This document shows positions 28,603 to 38,438 of a DNA stretch of 38,438 nt, piece after piece; the stretch's first letter is position 1, and the number at the start of each line of letters is the position of its first letter. The translations under genes and the position numbers were made by a program. Origin of the DNA: Verrucomicrobiota bacterium (lineage in GTDB: Bacteria; Verrucomicrobiota; Verrucomicrobiia; Limisphaerales; UBA1412). The DNA is taken from the NCBI GenBank assembly GCA_016283885.1, contig JAEENR010000223.1, positions 1 to 38,438 on the forward strand, in the 5' to 3' direction. Below the pieces are notes generated by a model. The model saw nothing but the letters and a program-made list of their open reading frames with translations. It had not been told where the DNA came from and did not search any database.

Positions 28603-29109
28603 ATGTTTGCTTTTATTGTTTCTGTTTTAGCCCAATTTGATGGGATAACGTCTGTTGAATCGGATGCGGTCAGCACCTCGTATAAATTCAATGTGGAGAC
28701 GCTGTGCGGTGTGCTGATTTTGCTGATACTGGGTATTGGACTTGGTATATGGATCGCTTTCAAGAATATCCAGCATAAGAAGAAGCGCCATCATCACCAC
28801 CATCATCACCATCATTCCTCCTCTTCTGAAAAGAAGGAGTCTGAAAAGAAGGAGGACTCTTCCGATTCTTCTGATTCCTCCGAAAAGGAGGAAAGCGATG
28901 ATTCCGACTCCAAATCAGAATCTTCTGATGATGAGGAAGACGATGAGGAAAAAGAGAAGCACCACAGCGGACATCACCGCAAACGCCGCCGCCGCAGGGA
29001 ACATCGTCCGCGTGGCAAGACCTTAGCTGAAAGTGGTGGACTGCCTCCGGTGCGTCCGCCGGGAGTCCCACCGCCGGCAGTCATCAAACGTGATGACGAG
29101 TATAGGTAA
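28603..29109 (+). CDS. His-rich, Ser/Asp/Glu-rich single-pass membrane protein, function unknown
   Basis: 168 residues. A short N-terminal part is followed by one TM helix at about 33-52 (VETLCGVLILLILGIGLGIWIAF), then a run of nine histidines at 63-71. Next come Ser/Glu/Lys/Asp low-complexity blocks (about 72-125), a second His cluster with five arginines (HHSGHHRKRRRRREHR), and a Pro-rich end (PPVRPPGVPPP). The topology suggests an acidic, metal-binding tail on one side of the membrane; the His run may bind Zn, Ni or Cu, but this is inference. Codon use does not look foreign. It lies between the sigma-54 regulator and the hpnD-like gene with 28 and 5 nt gaps, so it belongs to the same operon. 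No family recognised. Confidence 0.75.
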   Translation: MFAFIVSVLAQFDGITSVESDAVSTSYKFNVETLCGVLILLILGIGLGIWIAFKNIQHKKKRHHHHHHHHHSSSSEKKESEKKEDSSDSSDSSEKEESDDSDSKSESSDDEEDDEEKEKHHSGHHRKRRRRREHRPRGKTLAESGGLPPVRPPGVPPPAVIKRDDEYR

Positions 29110-30969: not shown

Positions 30970-31061
30970 GGAGAGGTGGCCGAGTGGCTGAAGGCGGCGG
31001 TTTGCTAAACCGTTGTACGGGTAACACCGTACCGGGGGTTCGAATCCCCCCTTCTCCGCCA
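30970..31061 (+). tRNA. tRNA-Ser (anticodon GCU), CCA encoded
   Basis: 92-nt class II tRNA. The acceptor stem GGAGAGG pairs with CTTCTCC (one G:T), followed by G and encoded CCA. The anticodon arm has TTTGCTAAA with GCT at 31004-31006, reading AGC and AGU. A long variable arm (TTGTACGGGTAACACCGTACCG) and the T arm GGGGGTTCGAATCCCCC are clear. Confidence 0.97.
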
Positions 31062-31128
31062 TTTCTTTTTCTTTTTCCATTTACTGATTAGACAGAATTT
31101 GCCCAGAGGTGAGAAATTGTATCTTGTT

Positions 31129-31638
31129 ATGGAGTTAATTGTTAGTTACGAAAAAATATTGTTTTTTATTACCATATTGATACTTCTTTTCTTGCTACCC
31201 ATCGGAGTTCTCATACGGGGCATTATCTGTAAGGGCAGTCGTTGTATTATTATTGGATCCGTATGGCTTTTTGTTTCTCTGGCTCTTGTTGCAGTTTTTG
31301 TGGATTTGTGTAGCACAAGCAGAGAAAAGATTCTCGATGCGGGAATGGTACCTGATGGCCGGGAATATGTACTGATGCAGCTATGGAATGGCGAACCGTA
31401 TAGAATCAATCTGTATGTAAGGAACTTGGAGGAAAAATGGGTTTTCTACTATGTAGAGCATGAATCTTGGCCTTGGCTGAGTGGCGGACATATAGAGTTT
31501 ACGAACAATATGGCCAGGGTCTTTAAAGGTTCCGAATTGTATCTAGATGTTGAACTTGATTTTTCATCAGATGGAGACAAATGCTATTCATCATCTTTTA
31601 CCGCAGATGATTTGTTTCAACATCTTCGCAAAGAATGA
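31129..31638 (+). CDS. orphan membrane protein of unknown function
   Basis: About 169 residues from the ATG at 31129; TTG starts at 31117 (near a GAGGT) and 31099 are possible in the same frame. Two TM helices: about 7-28 (ILFFITILILLFLLPIGVLI) and 38-58 (CIIIGSVWLFVSLALVAVFV). The rest is a soluble, probably extracytoplasmic domain with many Tyr and Trp residues (WVFYYVEHESWPWLSGG). No family recognised. The AT-rich codon use differs from the neighbours, and the gene sits 68 nt behind a tRNA gene, a common place for acquired DNA. No integrase or duplicated tRNA end was seen, so acquisition is only a suggestion. Confidence 0.7.
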   Translation: MELIVSYEKILFFITILILLFLLPIGVLIRGIICKGSRCIIIGSVWLFVSLALVAVFVDLCSTSREKILDAGMVPDGREYVLMQLWNGEPYRINLYVRNLEEKWVFYYVEHESWPWLSGGHIEFTNNMARVFKGSELYLDVELDFSSDGDKCYSSSFTADDLFQHLRKE

Positions 31639-31693
31639 GCTTGTAAATCAGATATTTTTGGAAATAACTGATCATCTTTTGAAAATAACCTTC

Positions 31694-31721
31694 TGGACAA
31701 TACGTTTATTTTGTGTACAAT
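31694..31721 (+). promoter_or_regulatory. candidate tatA promoter
   Basis: TGGACA (31694-31699), 16-nt spacer, TACAAT (31716-31721). Predicted start near 31728 gives a leader of about 118 nt with a small CGCTA...TAGCG hairpin. Confidence 0.55.
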
Positions 31722-31845
31722 CGGTTTCGCTATGGCGGCTTAGCGATTGAATTCGCTCTGGTACATGCTGTTTAAGTGGTGGTAGGTAGGAAACGGGTGC
31801 ATTGGTTTCGTCTTGGCAATCATTAACTTAATAAAGAAAGTATAG

Positions 31846-32127
31846 ATGAATATGAACGGTTTATTAGCGTTTGTTGTGCCGGGTGGATGGGAACTCGTCC
31901 TGATCGTGATCGTGGTTTTACTGCTCTTCGGAGCAAAGAAGATCCCCGAACTGGCTAAAGGTTTGGGCACGGGTATCAAAGAGTTCAAGAAGGCCACCAA
32001 TGAGATCAACAGTGAAGTGCAGCGTGCGATGGAAGATGAACCTGCCAAAAGCACTCCTTCACAATCAAATCAGCAGTCGGCTTCTTCCACGAAGAATTCC
32101 CAGTCGGATCAGGCACCCAAGGCCTAG
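31846..32127 (+). CDS. tatA: Sec-independent translocase TatA/TatB-type subunit
   Basis: 93-residue TatA/B/E protein. A single N-terminal TM helix ([14 protein letters not shown]) is followed by the hinge [20 protein letters not shown] and an amphipathic helix, then a Ser/Gln-rich tail. The FG hinge pair and the Pro of KIPEL are typical of TatA. TatC is 30 nt downstream. Only one A/B-type gene is present here, so it may serve both roles, as in other minimal TatAC systems. Its clients probably include the exported oxidoreductase at 1577 and the lipoprotein at 35034. Confidence 0.93.
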
Positions 32128-32157: not shown

Positions 32158-33711
32158 ATGGCTGACGAGCCTGAAGATCCCATTCTGGATTCAGAAGAAG
32201 AGGAAGGCGGGCCGATAAAAGGTTTTCTGGAACACCTGGAGGATCTCCGCTGGGTGTTCCTCAAGAGTTTTACGGCTCTTTTCATCGCGCTGCTGGTCTG
32301 TCTGTTTGGCGCGCCGACGATCATTAGTATTCTGAAAAAACCTCTTGAGGAATCGGGCAGACTGGAAAGTCTCTACGGTTCCAAGGGGGCTTCTATCGCG
32401 GTACGGGTCGGCACGAATACGGTCGGCACTTTCAGACCGGGCACCGCGTATATGCAAGGGCTGGCGGCTCTCAATGTCCCTTCTAATCAAAATGTCACGC
32501 TGGATCTCTATCCCGTGACGCACGGGACGAATCACTATCTGGCCTTTGCCATCAATACCAATGAGGCCGAATTTCCACAGAAAGCGCCTGTCCAGCTGTT
32601 GAACCTGACACCGGCTTCAGGTTTTCTGGTAGCGCTGCAGGTGGCGTTTTACGGTGGTCTGGTATTCGCTTCGCCCTTTATTTTATTCTTTATCGCGCAA
32701 TTTGTTCTGCCGGCTTTGAAGGTGAATGAGCTGCGCTATGTCCGCAAAGCTTTCCTGTTGGGTGTAGGTCTCTTCCTGATGGGGCTTGCTCTTTGTTACT
32801 ATCTGATGCTGCCGATCGCCTTGAGAGCGGCAGTCTGGTTCTCAAATCAGATGGGCTTTGGCGCGTTTCAGTGGACAGCCGATACTTATATCGGTTTTGT
32901 GACGAAATTCATGCTGGCCATGGGCATCGGCTTTGAACTGCCGATCTTCCTGCTGCTGTTCGTCAAGATCGGTCTGATCAACTACAGCACGCTGGCCAAG
33001 AACCGCAAGCTGGTCTTTATCATCATTTTGGTAATAGCAGCTATCCTGACGCCGCCGGATGTGGTTACCCAGATCGCGATGGCTGTTCCCCTCTATATCC
33101 TCTTTGAGATCACGGCGATGATCGCCTGGTTCTGGGAGCGGAAAGAGAAGAAGCTGAAAGAGGCGGAAGAGGCTGCCGAAGCCGCTGAGCTGGAGGCCCG
33201 CCGACAGGAGCGCAACCGCCGTGTGGCGGAAGCTGCCCGCGCGAAGCAGGAAGAGAAATTTGCCCTGGAATCGAATCAAACTCAGACGACCGAAACCGCT
33301 TCGGGTGAAACCTCGGAAACAGATCCGGAAGCGACTTCGGAAACAGAAGAGACTTCGGATGAAGATGCCGATGAATCGGAGAATGAGGCTGAGGACGAAG
33401 AGGAAAAGACCGGGGAAGAGGCTGAGGCAAAGATAGATCCGGCTTTAGCGGAGATGGTGGCTAAAGAACCCTTCCAGCCGGAAGGAGAGCCGAATCCGCC
33501 TTATGTTCCGCCGCTGGAAGAGGATCCCGGTTATCAGCCTTACGCAGAGGCACTGGCACAGTCCTCCGGTTCGGAACCGGAACCGGCAGAGACCGGAACG
33601 GAGACTTCGGATGCCGTTGAAAATGAGATGGTAGAAACGGAGACTCCGGCGGAAGAGGAAGAAAAGTCCCGGTGGACTGATGATGACAGGAACCCCGATA
33701 TCCCTTTATAG
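32158..33711 (+). CDS. tatC: Sec-independent translocase TatC, enlarged
   Basis: TatC signal-peptide receptor of the twin-arginine translocase, 517 residues against about 250 usual. The core is intact: FLEHLEDLRWVFLKS (N-terminal HLEELR-type motif), the conserved Glu equivalent to E. coli E103 at E191 (PALKVNELRYV), TPPDVVTQ (298-305) and six TM helices. Two parts are extra. The loop between TM1 and TM2 (about 61-150) is some 60-70 residues longer than normal. After TM6 (ends near 326) there is a tail of about 190 residues, first Glu/Ala/Arg coiled coil, then Glu/Asp/Ser/Thr-rich and Pro-rich. hisD starts 3 nt downstream. Confidence 0.93.
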   Translation: MADEPEDPILDSEEEEGGPIKGFLEHLEDLRWVFLKSFTALFIALLVCLFGAPTIISILKKPLEESGRLESLYGSKGASIAVRVGTNTVGTFRPGTAYMQGLAALNVPSNQNVTLDLYPVTHGTNHYLAFAINTNEAEFPQKAPVQLLNLTPASGFLVALQVAFYGGLVFASPFILFFIAQFVLPALKVNELRYVRKAFLLGVGLFLMGLALCYYLMLPIALRAAVWFSNQMGFGAFQWTADTYIGFVTKFMLAMGIGFELPIFLLLFVKIGLINYSTLAKNRKLVFIIILVIAAILTPPDVVTQIAMAVPLYILFEITAMIAWFWERKEKKLKEAEEAAEAAELEARRQERNRRVAEAARAKQEEKFALESNQTQTTETASGETSETDPEATSETEETSDEDADESENEAEDEEEKTGEEAEAKIDPALAEMVAKEPFQPEGEPNPPYVPPLEEDPGYQPYAEALAQSSGSEPEPAETGTETSDAVENEMVETETPAEEEEKSRWTDDDRNPDIPL

Positions 33712-33714
33712 ACA

Positions 33715-35016
33715 ATGAAGATCCTGAAATATAACGATGCCGCTTTTGAGGCGGAATTTGAAGCCGTGCTGGCTACCTCCAGTTTGTTCGATGCGGAGGT
33801 GGAAGCCAGTGTCCGCAAGATACTGGAAGCCGTGCGCACAAAAGGCGACAAAGCTCTGGTTGATTTTGCCGCGAAATTCGACAAAGTCACCCTTCGTCCC
33901 GACGGACTCAAGGTCACCGTGGAAGAACAGGTGGCCGCTGCGCTCAAGACGGTTTGTCAGCCGGGTGTGGAAAAGGCGATGAAGGAGGCTCATAAGAACA
34001 TTGCTTCCTTTGCTAAGAAATCTTTGCGCAAGAACTGGCAGAGCACTAATTCCCATGGAGCCAAAGTGGGCGAGAAATTCGATCCTTTCTACCGGGTGGG
34101 CATCTATGTTCCTGCGGGGAAAGCGCCTTTGGCCAGTACCGCGCTGATGACCATCACGCTGGCGGCCGCGGCGGGCTGCAAGGAGATCGTTGTCTGCACG
34201 CCATGCGGCAAAGACGGCACTATCCAGCCGGAACTGCTTTATGCGGCGATGCTGGCCGGTGCGACCGAGATCTATCGTGTGGGAGGAGCTCAGGCCATCG
34301 CGGCGATGGCTTACGGTACCCGGACGATCGGCAAGGTCCAAAAGATCTTTGGGCCAGGCAACGCTTATGTCGTGGCGGCCAAACGGCTGCTGTTCGGTCA
34401 TGTGGCGCTGGATCTGCTGCCGGGGCCCAGTGAAGTGCTGGTGATCGCGGACGCGGATGCGAACCCGGCGTTCATCGCGGCGGATATTCTGGCACAGGCT
34501 GAACACGGTTCCGGCAAGGAACGGGTCTGGATGGTGACTCCGTCCGGACGAATCCTGACCGCGGTGCGCAAGGAGATCGAGAAACAGTTGAAGACCTCCG
34601 ACCGCAAGGAGCTGTTAAGTCGTGTCCTGGAGAACGGAACGGCCCTGATCCAGGTCAAGGATATGAAACAGGCGGTCACTCTGGCAAACCGGCTGGCACC
34701 GGAACACTGCGAGGTGATGACAAAGGATCCGCGCGCGGTGGCGGATCAGATCCACACGGCGGGCGCTTTGATGCTGGGCAGCTATTCTCCGGCAGTGCTG
34801 GGGGATTATGTGGCCGGCCCCAGTCATACTCTGCCGACAGGCGGTGCGGGAGTTTCTTTCGCGGGTCTGACGGTGGATCAATTCCAGCGCAGGACGAGCG
34901 TGGTGGAATACAGCAAGACCAGTCTGAAAAAAGCTTTGCCGACGGTGCAGAAGTTCGCAGCGATGGAGGGTCTGACCGCGCATGGACGTTCTGCCGAGAT
35001 GAGATTGAAAAAATAA
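33715..35016 (+). CDS. hisD: histidinol dehydrogenase
   Basis: Zinc enzyme that performs the last two oxidations of histidine synthesis (histidinol to histidine). All key residues are visible: VPAGKAPLASTALM (133-145), GGAQAIAAMAYGT (190-202), FGPGNAYV, Zn ligands Gln261 and His264 (LAQAEHGSG), catalytic Glu330-His331 (LAPEHCEV), Asp364 (LGDYVAGPSH) and the terminal AHGRS. 433 residues is the normal length. It sits between tatC (3 nt) and the Tat lipoprotein gene (17 nt) without other his genes. Confidence 0.96.
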   Translation: MKILKYNDAAFEAEFEAVLATSSLFDAEVEASVRKILEAVRTKGDKALVDFAAKFDKVTLRPDGLKVTVEEQVAAALKTVCQPGVEKAMKEAHKNIASFAKKSLRKNWQSTNSHGAKVGEKFDPFYRVGIYVPAGKAPLASTALMTITLAAAAGCKEIVVCTPCGKDGTIQPELLYAAMLAGATEIYRVGGAQAIAAMAYGTRTIGKVQKIFGPGNAYVVAAKRLLFGHVALDLLPGPSEVLVIADADANPAFIAADILAQAEHGSGKERVWMVTPSGRILTAVRKEIEKQLKTSDRKELLSRVLENGTALIQVKDMKQAVTLANRLAPEHCEVMTKDPRAVADQIHTAGALMLGSYSPAVLGDYVAGPSHTLPTGGAGVSFAGLTVDQFQRRTSVVEYSKTSLKKALPTVQKFAAMEGLTAHGRSAEMRLKK

Positions 35017-35033: not shown

Positions 35034-36023
35034 ATGAATAGAAGATCTTTTTTAAGAAATTTAGCTCTGGGAGCGGCCGGCGGTTACAGCGCGCTGCTCG
35101 CCGGTTGTGTCAGTACCGAGCCTCAGCCCGAACCGGGTGTGGTGAAGTACTCTAATACGCCGGATCAGGCGGAACTGATCTCGGATCCGCATTTTTTGAA
35201 AGGCTTTCAGCTGGTGGATCCTGAGGCTCGCACTTCCAATTACGGGATCTGGTGTCCTTTCTTTGAGACGACACCGGTCTGGAAACTGGCTCAGTGGCAC
35301 ACGATCCAGAAACTTTCCCCTAACGGGATGCAGCGGACGGCCAGCCGTGATTCGGCGCAGATCGCCAATGACTGCAAGGCTGTCACCGTGACCACACCGG
35401 AACATTCCAGATCGGATCTGATCCTGGAAGTCCTTGGCAATACGGAATATCAGGGAACGCCCCGCGCCGGCGATGAACCCTGGGTGCATCTGCTGGTGGA
35501 GCAGGCGATCGAGACCAAGCCGCGTTTGGTGGATCTGACCGCGCTGAACTTCCATCTGGAGGCTCGTCTGCTGTTTGCCAAGCTGTACAAACCCAAACAA
35601 TTCGATGAGACCAAACACGCGGCTCAATATCAGGTTTTCTTCTACCTGCAGGATACCAACCGCAAGTCGGAAGGCTACGGAGAGATGATCTGGTTTGGTG
35701 TTCCGGTCTATGACAACCGCGAATGGATGACCGACCGCTATGAGGCGGCGGATTTTGCCGGTTCGGGGATGTTTATCTGTACTTTAGCGCATGAGGATGT
35801 CTGCCCGGATTCCGCTCACGGCGGCAAGTGGATCACGCTGGAGGCGGATCTGCTGCCCCAGATGAAGGAAGCCTTCTCGATCGCCCAAAAGAAGGGCTTT
35901 ATGCAAAAGACCAAAAGCCTGGAGGATATCCGTCTGACCGGGATGAATATGGGCTGGGAAGTGCCGGGACTGCTGGATGTCAGCTTGCAGACACGCAATC
36001 TGAGTCTGCGCTGCGAGTCATAA
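35034..36023 (+). CDS. Tat-type lipoprotein of unknown function
   Basis: 329 residues. The signal has twin arginine (NRRSFLRNLAL) and a lipobox LLAGC (Cys25), so it is predicted to be exported folded by Tat and then lipidated. The mature part (Pro-rich spacer, then about 290 residues) has alternating beta-type segments (HFLKGFQLVDPE, YQVFFYLQDTNR, GGKWITLEADLLPQM) that recall a beta-sandwich or lectin-like domain. I do not recognise a family and no catalytic motif is certain. It lies 17 nt after hisD and ends the tatA-tatC-hisD operon at a strong terminator. Confidence 0.82.
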   Translation: MNRRSFLRNLALGAAGGYSALLAGCVSTEPQPEPGVVKYSNTPDQAELISDPHFLKGFQLVDPEARTSNYGIWCPFFETTPVWKLAQWHTIQKLSPNGMQRTASRDSAQIANDCKAVTVTTPEHSRSDLILEVLGNTEYQGTPRAGDEPWVHLLVEQAIETKPRLVDLTALNFHLEARLLFAKLYKPKQFDETKHAAQYQVFFYLQDTNRKSEGYGEMIWFGVPVYDNREWMTDRYEAADFAGSGMFICTLAHEDVCPDSAHGGKWITLEADLLPQMKEAFSIAQKKGFMQKTKSLEDIRLTGMNMGWEVPGLLDVSLQTRNLSLRCES

Positions 36024-36048
36024 CAGGCACACTCCCTATAAGCAAAAG

Positions 36049-36073
36049 AGCCGCAGAACGCGGCTTTTTTTAT
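36049..36073 (+). terminator. bidirectional terminator between Tat lipoprotein and prepilin array
   Basis: AGCCGC-AGAAC-GCGGCT stem followed by seven T and ATTTT on the plus strand; on the minus strand the same stem is followed by CTTTTGC, so it can also end the prepilin operon. Confidence 0.88.
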
Positions 36074-36107: not shown

Positions 36108-36947
36108 CTAAGGTCTCTTGCCAAAGGGGAGTACGATGCGGTTAAAAGAGTTGCTGGATTGAGCCAGATAACTTTGGAGATTGGTATTTAAGATTGTTTT
36201 TTGCACGGAACCATCCGCGAAAGTGACATTTCCTCTGTCAGTATGAAGTTCCGGGGTCCATTGGATATCTGAAAGGCTTTCCGGATCGGGTTCAGTGCCT
36301 CTCTGGAAAAGAATAGGATTGACGCTGTTTGTCATTACGGGCAAACGGGAACAGAACAGATTGCGGTCACCAAAGAGAAAGACTTTGGGAGTCTGGCCAT
36401 CATTGACTATTTCCAAATTGATGAAATAGGAAATGTTATACCTTCCACCATTTGGATCTTTAAGCATATCTTGAGAGTTTTTGATTTTTTTATTTATTGA
36501 TAAATCTGAGGGACAGTTTAGCAAACGAAAGTCTACTATTTCATTGCTGCAAACAATGAAATGGTATGAAAAAGCTAAATCTTTTGAGAAATTGTTTGTC
36601 CGATACCAGCCAGTGAGATCCGGGATTTGATTTAAGTTTATTTCCTTTGCGGAGATTGAAGGAGTAAGATCATCTGAAAGAAAAGGTTCAGCCAGTTCTT
36701 TTGTTCCTCCTTCGGAAACAGGGACACCCCAAGGGAAGCGCTCCTCATTGTCAAGGGCATACTCTCTTGCAGCTAATCCCAGTTGTTTTAAATTCCCCAT
36801 ACAAGCAACGTTATTAGCACGAATAGGGGTGATGGGAACTAAAGCAGGAAGTATTACAAGCAATAGTGCAACAATACAGACAATACAAATGATCAGTTCA
36901 ACGAGTGTAAATGCTGTAATTCTTTTGGAATGGGTAACTGTTTTCAT
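36108..36947 (-). CDS. prepilin-like H-X9-DG protein, paralogue A
   Basis: 279 residues. Type IV pilin-like N-terminus ITAFTLVELIICIVCIVALL, cleaved before the Phe by a prepilin peptidase, then a soluble C-terminal domain. The processing-associated H-X9-DG signature is exact: His, nine residues (TDRGNVTFA), then Asp-Gly in the ELHTDRGNVTFADGS segment. Such proteins are abundant in Lentisphaerota and Planctomycetes. It is the third and last gene of a minus-strand tandem array; the start is 3 nt after the stop of paralogue B. It shares long stretches with B and C (SEGGTKELAEPFLS, GGRYNISYFINLE, NSFNRIVLPFGKRP). Function unknown; extracellular, pseudopilin-like assembly is inferred from the signal. 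Confidence 0.88.
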   Translation of the reverse strand: MKTVTHSKRITAFTLVELIICIVCIVALLLVILPALVPITPIRANNVACMGNLKQLGLAAREYALDNEERFPWGVPVSEGGTKELAEPFLSDDLTPSISAKEINLNQIPDLTGWYRTNNFSKDLAFSYHFIVCSNEIVDFRLLNCPSDLSINKKIKNSQDMLKDPNGGRYNISYFINLEIVNDGQTPKVFLFGDRNLFCSRLPVMTNSVNPILFQRGTEPDPESLSDIQWTPELHTDRGNVTFADGSVQKTILNTNLQSYLAQSSNSFNRIVLPFGKRP

Positions 36948-36950
36948 AAA

Positions 36951-37790
36951 CTAAGGTCTCTTGCCAAAGGGGAGCACGATGCGGTTGAAAGAGTTAGAGG
37001 ATTGTATGTAATTATGAAACTTATATCTGTTACTGCCATGTAGTTGCTCTACATGAGCATCCGCAAAAACGGCTTTTATACCATCGCCATGAATATAACC
37101 ATGGACATCTGAGAAGTTTTCCGGATCGGGATCAGTACCTCGTTGGAAAAGAATTGGATTGGTATTGTTTGTCATCACGGGAAAGCGAGAGCAATATAAG
37201 CCTCGGTCTCCAAAGAGAAAGGCATTAGGGTTATTGGGATCAGAGTCATTGACTGTTTCCAAATTGATAAAGTAAGAGATGTTATATCTCCCGCCATCTG
37301 GGCTTTGGAGCATATCTTGAGCGTTTATATTTTTTTTCTTTATTGATAAATCTGAGGGACAAATCAGCAGACGAAAGTTAATTATTTCATTGCTCATAAC
37401 TATGAAGTGGTATGAAAATGCTGATTTTTGCGAGAGATTGTTTGTTCGATACCAACCAGTTGGATCCGGAATCTGATTCAAATCTATTTCTTTTGCGGAG
37501 AGTGAAGGAGTAAGATCATCTGAAAGAAAAGGTTCTGCCAGTTCTTTTGTTCCACCTTCTGAAACGGGGATGGTCCAGGGAAAACGCTCCTCATTATCAA
37601 TAGCATACATTCTTACAGATAATCCCAGTTGTTTTAGATTTCCAGAACAAACAACAGTTTTATCATAAGAGTGAGGGTGAGAGATTAGAGGGAGTATTAC
37701 AAGCAACAGTCCAACAATACAACCTATACAGATAATCAATTCAACGAGTGTAAACGCTGTGGTTCTTTTGGAATGTGCGGTTGTTTTCAT
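36951..37790 (-). CDS. prepilin-like protein, paralogue B with altered H-X9-DG motif
   Basis: 279 residues, same layout as paralogue A: prepilin signal TTAFTLVELIICIGCIVGLL, a body shared with A and the identical C-terminal end NSFNRIVLPFGKRP. In the signature region it reads HGDGIKAVFADAH, so the final Asp-Gly is Asp-Ala (H-X9-DA). The 3-nt gaps to both neighbours indicate co-transcription. The segment after HSYDK and the region before the C-terminal end differ most from A. Likely a recent tandem duplicate. Confidence 0.88.
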   Translation of the reverse strand: MKTTAHSKRTTAFTLVELIICIGCIVGLLLVILPLISHPHSYDKTVVCSGNLKQLGLSVRMYAIDNEERFPWTIPVSEGGTKELAEPFLSDDLTPSLSAKEIDLNQIPDPTGWYRTNNLSQKSAFSYHFIVMSNEIINFRLLICPSDLSIKKKNINAQDMLQSPDGGRYNISYFINLETVNDSDPNNPNAFLFGDRGLYCSRFPVMTNNTNPILFQRGTDPDPENFSDVHGYIHGDGIKAVFADAHVEQLHGSNRYKFHNYIQSSNSFNRIVLPFGKRP

Positions 37791-37793
37791 AAG

Positions 37794-38438
37794 CTAAGGT
37801 CTCTTACCAAAGGGGAGCACGATGCGGTTGAAAGAGTTAGTGGATTGAGTCAGATAACTTTGGAGTTTGGTATTTGTGAATTGCCGTACAGAATAATCTA
37901 TAAAAGCGACGTTTCCACCAATATCATGTTGAAGATGAAGTTTCGCAGGCCACCATTGGACATCTGAAAAGTTTTCAGGATCGGGTTCAGAGCCTCGCTG
38001 AAAAAGGATAGGGTTGACGCTGTTTGTCATCACAGGAAAACGGGAACAGAGTAAACTACGGTCTCCAAAGATAATTGTATTGGAATGAGCAGTATCATTG
38101 ACTGTCTCTAAATTGATGAAGTAAGAAATGTTATATCTCCCGCCGTTTGGATCTTGGAGCATATCTTGAGTGCTTTTGATTTTTTTATTTATGGATAAAT
38201 CTGCGGGACAGCTGACAAGACGGAAGTCTCCTAATTGATTGCTGCAAGTGATGAAATTATATGAAATGGCTAAATTTTTTGAGAAATTGTTTGTCCGATA
38301 CCAGTCAGATGGATCAGGGATCTGATTTAAATCTATTTCCTTTGCGGAGAGTGAAGTGGTGGCATCCACTGAAAGAAAAGGTTCAGCCAGTTCTTTGGTT
38401 CCACCCTCAGAAACTGGAATACCCCAGGGAAAACGATA
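37794..38438 (-). CDS. prepilin-like protein, paralogue C (5' truncated by window edge)
   Basis: Frame open to the right window edge, so the signal is missing; an internal GTG near 38369 is not the start. The 215 visible residues match A and B, including FPWGIPVSEGGTKELAEPFLS and GGRYNISYFINLETVND, with the same C-terminal NSFNRIVLPFGKRP. The signature region reads HDIGGNVAFIDYS, so the final Gly is Tyr (H-X9-DY). Between NGG and the C-terminus it resembles A more than B in places (TNTKLQSYL). It is upstream of B by 3 nt; further copies may lie beyond the edge. Confidence 0.85.
   Translation of the reverse strand, partial: YRFPWGIPVSEGGTKELAEPFLSVDATTSLSAKEIDLNQIPDPSDWYRTNNFSKNLAISYNFITCSNQLGDFRLVSCPADLSINKKIKSTQDMLQDPNGGRYNISYFINLETVNDTAHSNTIIFGDRSLLCSRFPVMTNSVNPILFQRGSEPDPENFSDVQWWPAKLHLQHDIGGNVAFIDYSVRQFTNTKLQSYLTQSTNSFNRIVLPFGKRP

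Follow-up and report, generated by a model that had tools for sequence, protein, structure and literature searches.

The question raised by the right-hand end of this contig is how a tandem array of closely similar prepilin-like genes has come about, and whether its copies have exchanged sequence. The window, that is, the whole stretch of DNA analysed (38,438 nucleotides), is an entire contig (G000:C206, G000 being this genome). Planctomycetes and Verrucomicrobiota stand out by prepilin-like families of very large size, a trait for which there is as yet no good explanation. The available extracts of published reports give 68 DUF1559 paralogues in Planctopirus limnophila, two of them essential (PMC10632474), 74 DUF1559 genes in Rhodopirellula baltica (PMC2754498) and 67 pulG-like pseudopilin homologues in Verruconatronum alginivorum, a member of the Verrucomicrobiota, for which the authors invoke six gene-transfer events together with duplication (PMC13274419). 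Neither the gene family nor its tendency to expand is therefore new, and the array described here is a modest further example.

Results

Organization of the array and of its site

It was found that the three genes A, B and C lie head to tail on the minus strand with intergenic gaps of 3 nt (Table 1), as an earlier note made from the sequence had described, and they probably form one transcription unit. Pairwise protein identity is 71% for A-B, 74% for A-C and 67% for B-C, which is far above chance, and the duplication that the note had proposed is supported. The longest exact match among the three copies is only 34 nt. The convergent lipoprotein-like gene serves as a marker of the insertion site; behind it lie two genes that we take to be hisD-like and tatC-like. 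The terminator-like repeat between this gene and the array is present in the sister species UBA1263 too. Elsewhere in the window there is an AT-rich stretch (31000-31999, GC about 0.40) with a 179-aa membrane-like open reading frame at 31099-31638, and a 168-aa open reading frame at 28603-29109 has a membrane-like segment followed by runs of His, Ser, Glu and Asp.

Table 1. Features of the array and its left-hand neighbourhood, in positions of the window
Feature	Position	Strand	Description
tatC-like (presumed)	32158-33711		behind the hisD-like gene
hisD-like (presumed)	33715-35016		behind the 329-aa flanking gene
Flanking gene	35034..36023	+	329 aa, twin-arginine/lipoprotein-like start, convergent to array
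Inverted repeat with T tails	36044..36070	.	terminator-like, both strands, consensus matches only
Copy A	36108..36947	-	279 aa, prepilin-like, last of array, H-X9-DG intact
Copy B	36951..37790	-	279 aa, motif is H-X9-DA
Copy C	37794..38438	-	214 codons, 5' end lost at contig end, motif is H-X9-DY

The opposite flank is found on another contig of the same genome (G000:C165), which stops exactly before the first ATG of the array and bears a large gene, presumably nifJ-like, and a small cysteine-rich gene. In a third genome the contig (G005:C97) breaks off a few codons inside the array. These contigs break at the array though the longest exact match among its copies is so short, which suggests that more copies of this kind exist or that strains were mixed. 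When the 2.1-Mb assembly of this genome (75% complete) was searched in the manner of tblastn, no additional array-type copy was found. The copy number is thus at least three, three being the minimum in this genome. In UBA1263 (G002) two copies, D1 as the first and D2 as the last, occupy the same site on contig L054 (G002:C110); the small cysteine-rich gene lies on one side of them and the lipoprotein-like gene on the other, so that both flanks are in one contig. Three other genomes, G003, G001 and G004, have the tatC-hisD-lipoprotein group (tatC truncated by the contig start in G004) with no array after it.

The order, represented by 293 genomes, was searched with a profile of the five copies (E-value limit 1e-25, eight candidates scored in each genome listed), and matches were obtained in six genomes, which are all six of the genus. 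Array-type matches were confined to 2 of the 293 (G000 and G002), the other matches being a single-copy relative; the array of G005 is known from its contig end alone. The three genomes with the array are draft assemblies of 63-75% completeness.

A convergent 427-aa gene stands beside the lipoprotein-like gene in two genomes without the array (L074:3654-4937 in G003:C85 and L075:3581-4864 in G004:C108). The small cysteine-rich gene lies directly upstream of the array (L054:5974-6219, plus strand, 81 aa; L082, on G000:C165, 48-293, minus strand). Its product has three CxxCGSxxxGSCPxSPxxxH repeats in G000 and G002 and is found as a variant in G005; a family search of this protein returned nothing over the cut-off.

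Family membership and the single-copy relative

The genes of the array are paralogues, and their prepilin-like products are of the DUF1559 (PF07596, SBP_bac_10) kind. Against the cut-off of 23.3 bits for this family, A scored 24.2, B 27.2, D1 23.4 and D2 24.8; truncated copy C matched no family above cut-off, PF07596 included. The prepilin core motif A-FTLVEL can be recognised by eye. Nevertheless, the N_methyl profile (PF07963, cut-off 21.2) was not reached by A (14.9), B (11.4), D1 (16.2) or D2 (13.3). Since A and B fall below this cut-off and the single-copy relative, with 30.1, is above it, processing of the array proteins might be weakened or lost. For the H-X9-DG-CTERM model (TIGR04294, cut-off 19) A scored 17.7, D1 17.6 and D2 19.0 and no match was seen in B or C, so that the array as a set falls short of this family. 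A six-frame search of this genome with the same model gave 0 matches, as did the controls. A plasmid search with copy B as query gave no match.

The single-copy prepilin-like relative is present in all six genomes of the genus, with 32-39% identity to the array proteins over nearly the full length, and in this genome it lies among genes that, named by reading, appear to be fts-like. In a tree of 26 proteins, from which the G002 single-copy gene was left out, the clade of array and single-copy proteins and the monophyly of the array each have support of 100; the single-copy clade of the genus has only 66. The stem of the array is 0.93 substitutions per site long. GC3 is 0.34-0.37 in A-C as against 0.59-0.74 in five other genes; it is 0.59 in the single-copy gene, 0.60-0.68 in three flanking genes and 0.51 in the small upstream gene. 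The simple account by which the array arose as a recent local duplicate of the single-copy relative was rejected, because the long array stem lies outside the single-copy clade and the GC3 of the array is much lower. The AT-rich composition and the long stem suggest that the array probably derives from an old duplicate or from one of foreign origin.

Constraint on the C-terminal tail and the motif region

A, B and C end in the same 14 residues, NSFNRIVLPFGKRP, and the motif, if the second H of LHLQHD is taken as its first residue, ends in DG in A, DA in B and DY in C, in agreement with the earlier reading. Decay of the motif holds for two of the five copies (B and C), but A, D1 and D2 have kept it. 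The description of shared ends with a varying middle is roughly right, yet there are inner conserved blocks too (columns 81-100, where pS is 0.12, and columns 221-240), and variability peaks in columns 241-280, around the motif; columns 34-60 and 121-160 are variable as well. The single-copy relative keeps both H-X9-DG and a similar tail, NEYNRIVIPFVKK (in this genome N-E-Y-N-R-I-V-I-P-F-V-K-K). As a relative so diverged retains nearly the same tail, purifying constraint accounts for the shared C-terminus, and conversion is not needed as the origin of the identical C-termini. After B, C and D1 the sequence reads AAGAGACCTTAG, three bases, then ATG; the conserved tail bases may thus double as the ribosome-binding context of the next gene.

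Compared over their whole length, the copies have dN/dS values of 0.23-0.46. In the stretch that surrounds the motif (columns 241-280) pN is 0.30-0.34 and pS 0.34-0.45, with pN/pS near 0.8. The codon-level comparison did not bear out diversification, pN exceeding pS in none of the 15 usable windows. On this evidence the motif region would be under relaxed constraint rather than positive selection, and diversification of a surface structure, as the note had put it, is plausible.

Recombination between copies

Between G000 and G002 the dS of A and D1 is 0.069, as against 0.175-0.845 in 15 other genes; these were kept from 36 comparison rows after 18 overlapping reading-frame shadows (several with dS < 0.069) were dropped and 3 array copies set apart. 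In columns 21-196 the two genes have one silent change in 108.5 sites, with an identical run of 350 nt, and in all they differ at 26 positions. However low, this dS can be read in two ways: the ancestor of A and D1 is younger than the species split, or the assemblies are mixed. The first 20 codons of D1 are nearer B (91%) than A (81%). The two ends of D2 resemble those of A, while its middle has diverged, pS being 0.373 in columns 21-196 and 0.138 in columns 197-301 (Fisher p = 0.0008, for a boundary picked post hoc from the window table with six pairs tested). The D1-D2 comparison gives the same pattern as A-D2 and is not independent of it.

Permutation of run lengths over all polymorphic sites of the four-copy set gave tracts in A-D2 and D1-D2 (global p 0.0005) and weaker signals in A-D1 (0.0165) and A-B (0.0465); in the three-copy set the values were 0.0175 for A-B and 0.0115 for A-C. 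This all-site signal among A, B and C is weak and is confounded by protein constraint. When silent sites only were used, no pair in any set reached a global p < 0.1. The gene conversion suggested earlier is therefore supported as recombination across species, in the A/D1 exchange and the mosaic D2, but is unproven among A, B and C, since the silent-site runs there are non-significant. In the assemblies as they stand, the copies are mosaic across species.

Filament machinery

The T2SSE family and the secretin were found in all six genomes of the genus, with three and two matches respectively in G000. A cluster on its contig C143 appears, from gene names given by reading, to hold two PilB/GspE-like genes and one each of PilT-like, GspF-like and pilin-like kind. 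The assembly machinery by which membership in type IV pilus/type II secretion was judged is thus present in this genome. The prepilin peptidase (PF01478) was found in three of the six genomes, and not in G000, G002 and G005, whose assemblies are 63-75% complete. AlphaFold2 on the five array sequences gave a pLDDT of 31, with some confidence only at the N-terminal helix 15-36. Among solved structures, pilins and GspG are among the chains nearest in sequence, matched in the N-terminal part only, at E 0.02-1. From family membership, the array products are likely to be pseudopilin-type filament subunits whose bodies would be drifting under relaxed constraint.

Discussion

Our data favour, with moderate confidence, a paralogous array of prepilin-like filament subunits whose copies recombine with one another and with those of related strains. 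In such an array the N-terminal FTLVEL segment would insert into the inner membrane, a prepilin peptidase would cut the proteins, and the products could join a type IV pilus/type II secretion-like filament by means of the PilB/PilT/GspE/GspF-like machinery of the genome. The conserved ends may serve processing and packing. The body, including the H-X9-DG stretch, would drift or diversify, and homologous recombination would reshuffle it between copies and related strains.

It could also be that the genes were simply duplicated in tandem and then drifted under relaxed constraint; the blocks would be kept because membrane insertion and folding require them, and recombination would have played no notable part. 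The non-significant silent-site tests, the dN/dS of whole genes with the higher ratio at the motif, and the tail shared with the single-copy relative are all consistent with this. So are the tandem pairs of other prepilin-like genes, with 51-65% identity, in four of six other stretches (G001, G012, G016 and G017; the remaining two, L093 and L097, yielded no gene despite matches there). What such an account leaves unexplained is a silent divergence of A and D1 far below that of the 15 other genes, and the mosaic D2, and we regard it as possible but rather unlikely. We also consider it unlikely that the locus is an array of recombining cassettes for a filament subunit of this Verrucomicrobiota lineage, in which bodies would be swapped between positions and species while position-specific ends stay fixed, so that variants of one surface structure would form a common pool.

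If pieces of related strains had been joined during assembly of mixed samples, apparent chimeras and the A/D1 identity would result. The contigs of G000 (on both sides) and G005 end at the array, all the assemblies are drafts of 63-75% completeness, and the A/D1 identity could reflect chimeric assembly, should a single sample have been the source of both genomes. On the other hand, all copies are open reading frames, the array shares one contig in G000 with the neighbour genes of one side and in G002 with those of both, and A still differs from D1, so that we hold an artefact to be improbable. A system devoted to variation, in which a single copy is expressed and the others are silent donors, comparable to pilin antigenic variation, would produce mosaic copies that vary in the body and not at the ends. 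But each copy with a readable 5' end begins with a start of its own and a complete N-terminus, the 3-nt gaps suit an expressed operon and the search of G000 showed no truncated donors, which makes such a system the least credible of these accounts. A small array of few copies with a clear site, with relatives that lack it and with traces of interspecies exchange would be a suitable case in which to study the growth of such families and the question of selection on their variation.

In the pilE/pilS arrays of Neisseria, which serve antigenic variation, constant ends flank a variable body that is changed by recombination. The present array resembles them in these three respects and differs in that neither silent truncated donors nor a single expression site was seen. 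With H-X9-DG-CTERM proteins (TIGR04294) it shares the motif in A, D1 and D2, unlike them in that A and D1 score below the cut-off and B and C are unmatched. In the open PMC literature searched, no description of cross-species mosaicism in such prepilin-like arrays was found. The pulG-like expansion of Verruconatronum alginivorum is alike in belonging to the Verrucomicrobiota, and the available extract of that report makes no mention of tandem arrangement or within-gene mosaicism (PMC13274419). The likeness to the DUF1559 / SBP_bac_10 proteins of Planctomycetes lies in the domain match above cut-off (A, B, D1 and D2) and in the paralogous family; the difference is that here a compact tandem array with copies mosaic across species is found in a small genome with only 11 prepilin-like matches.
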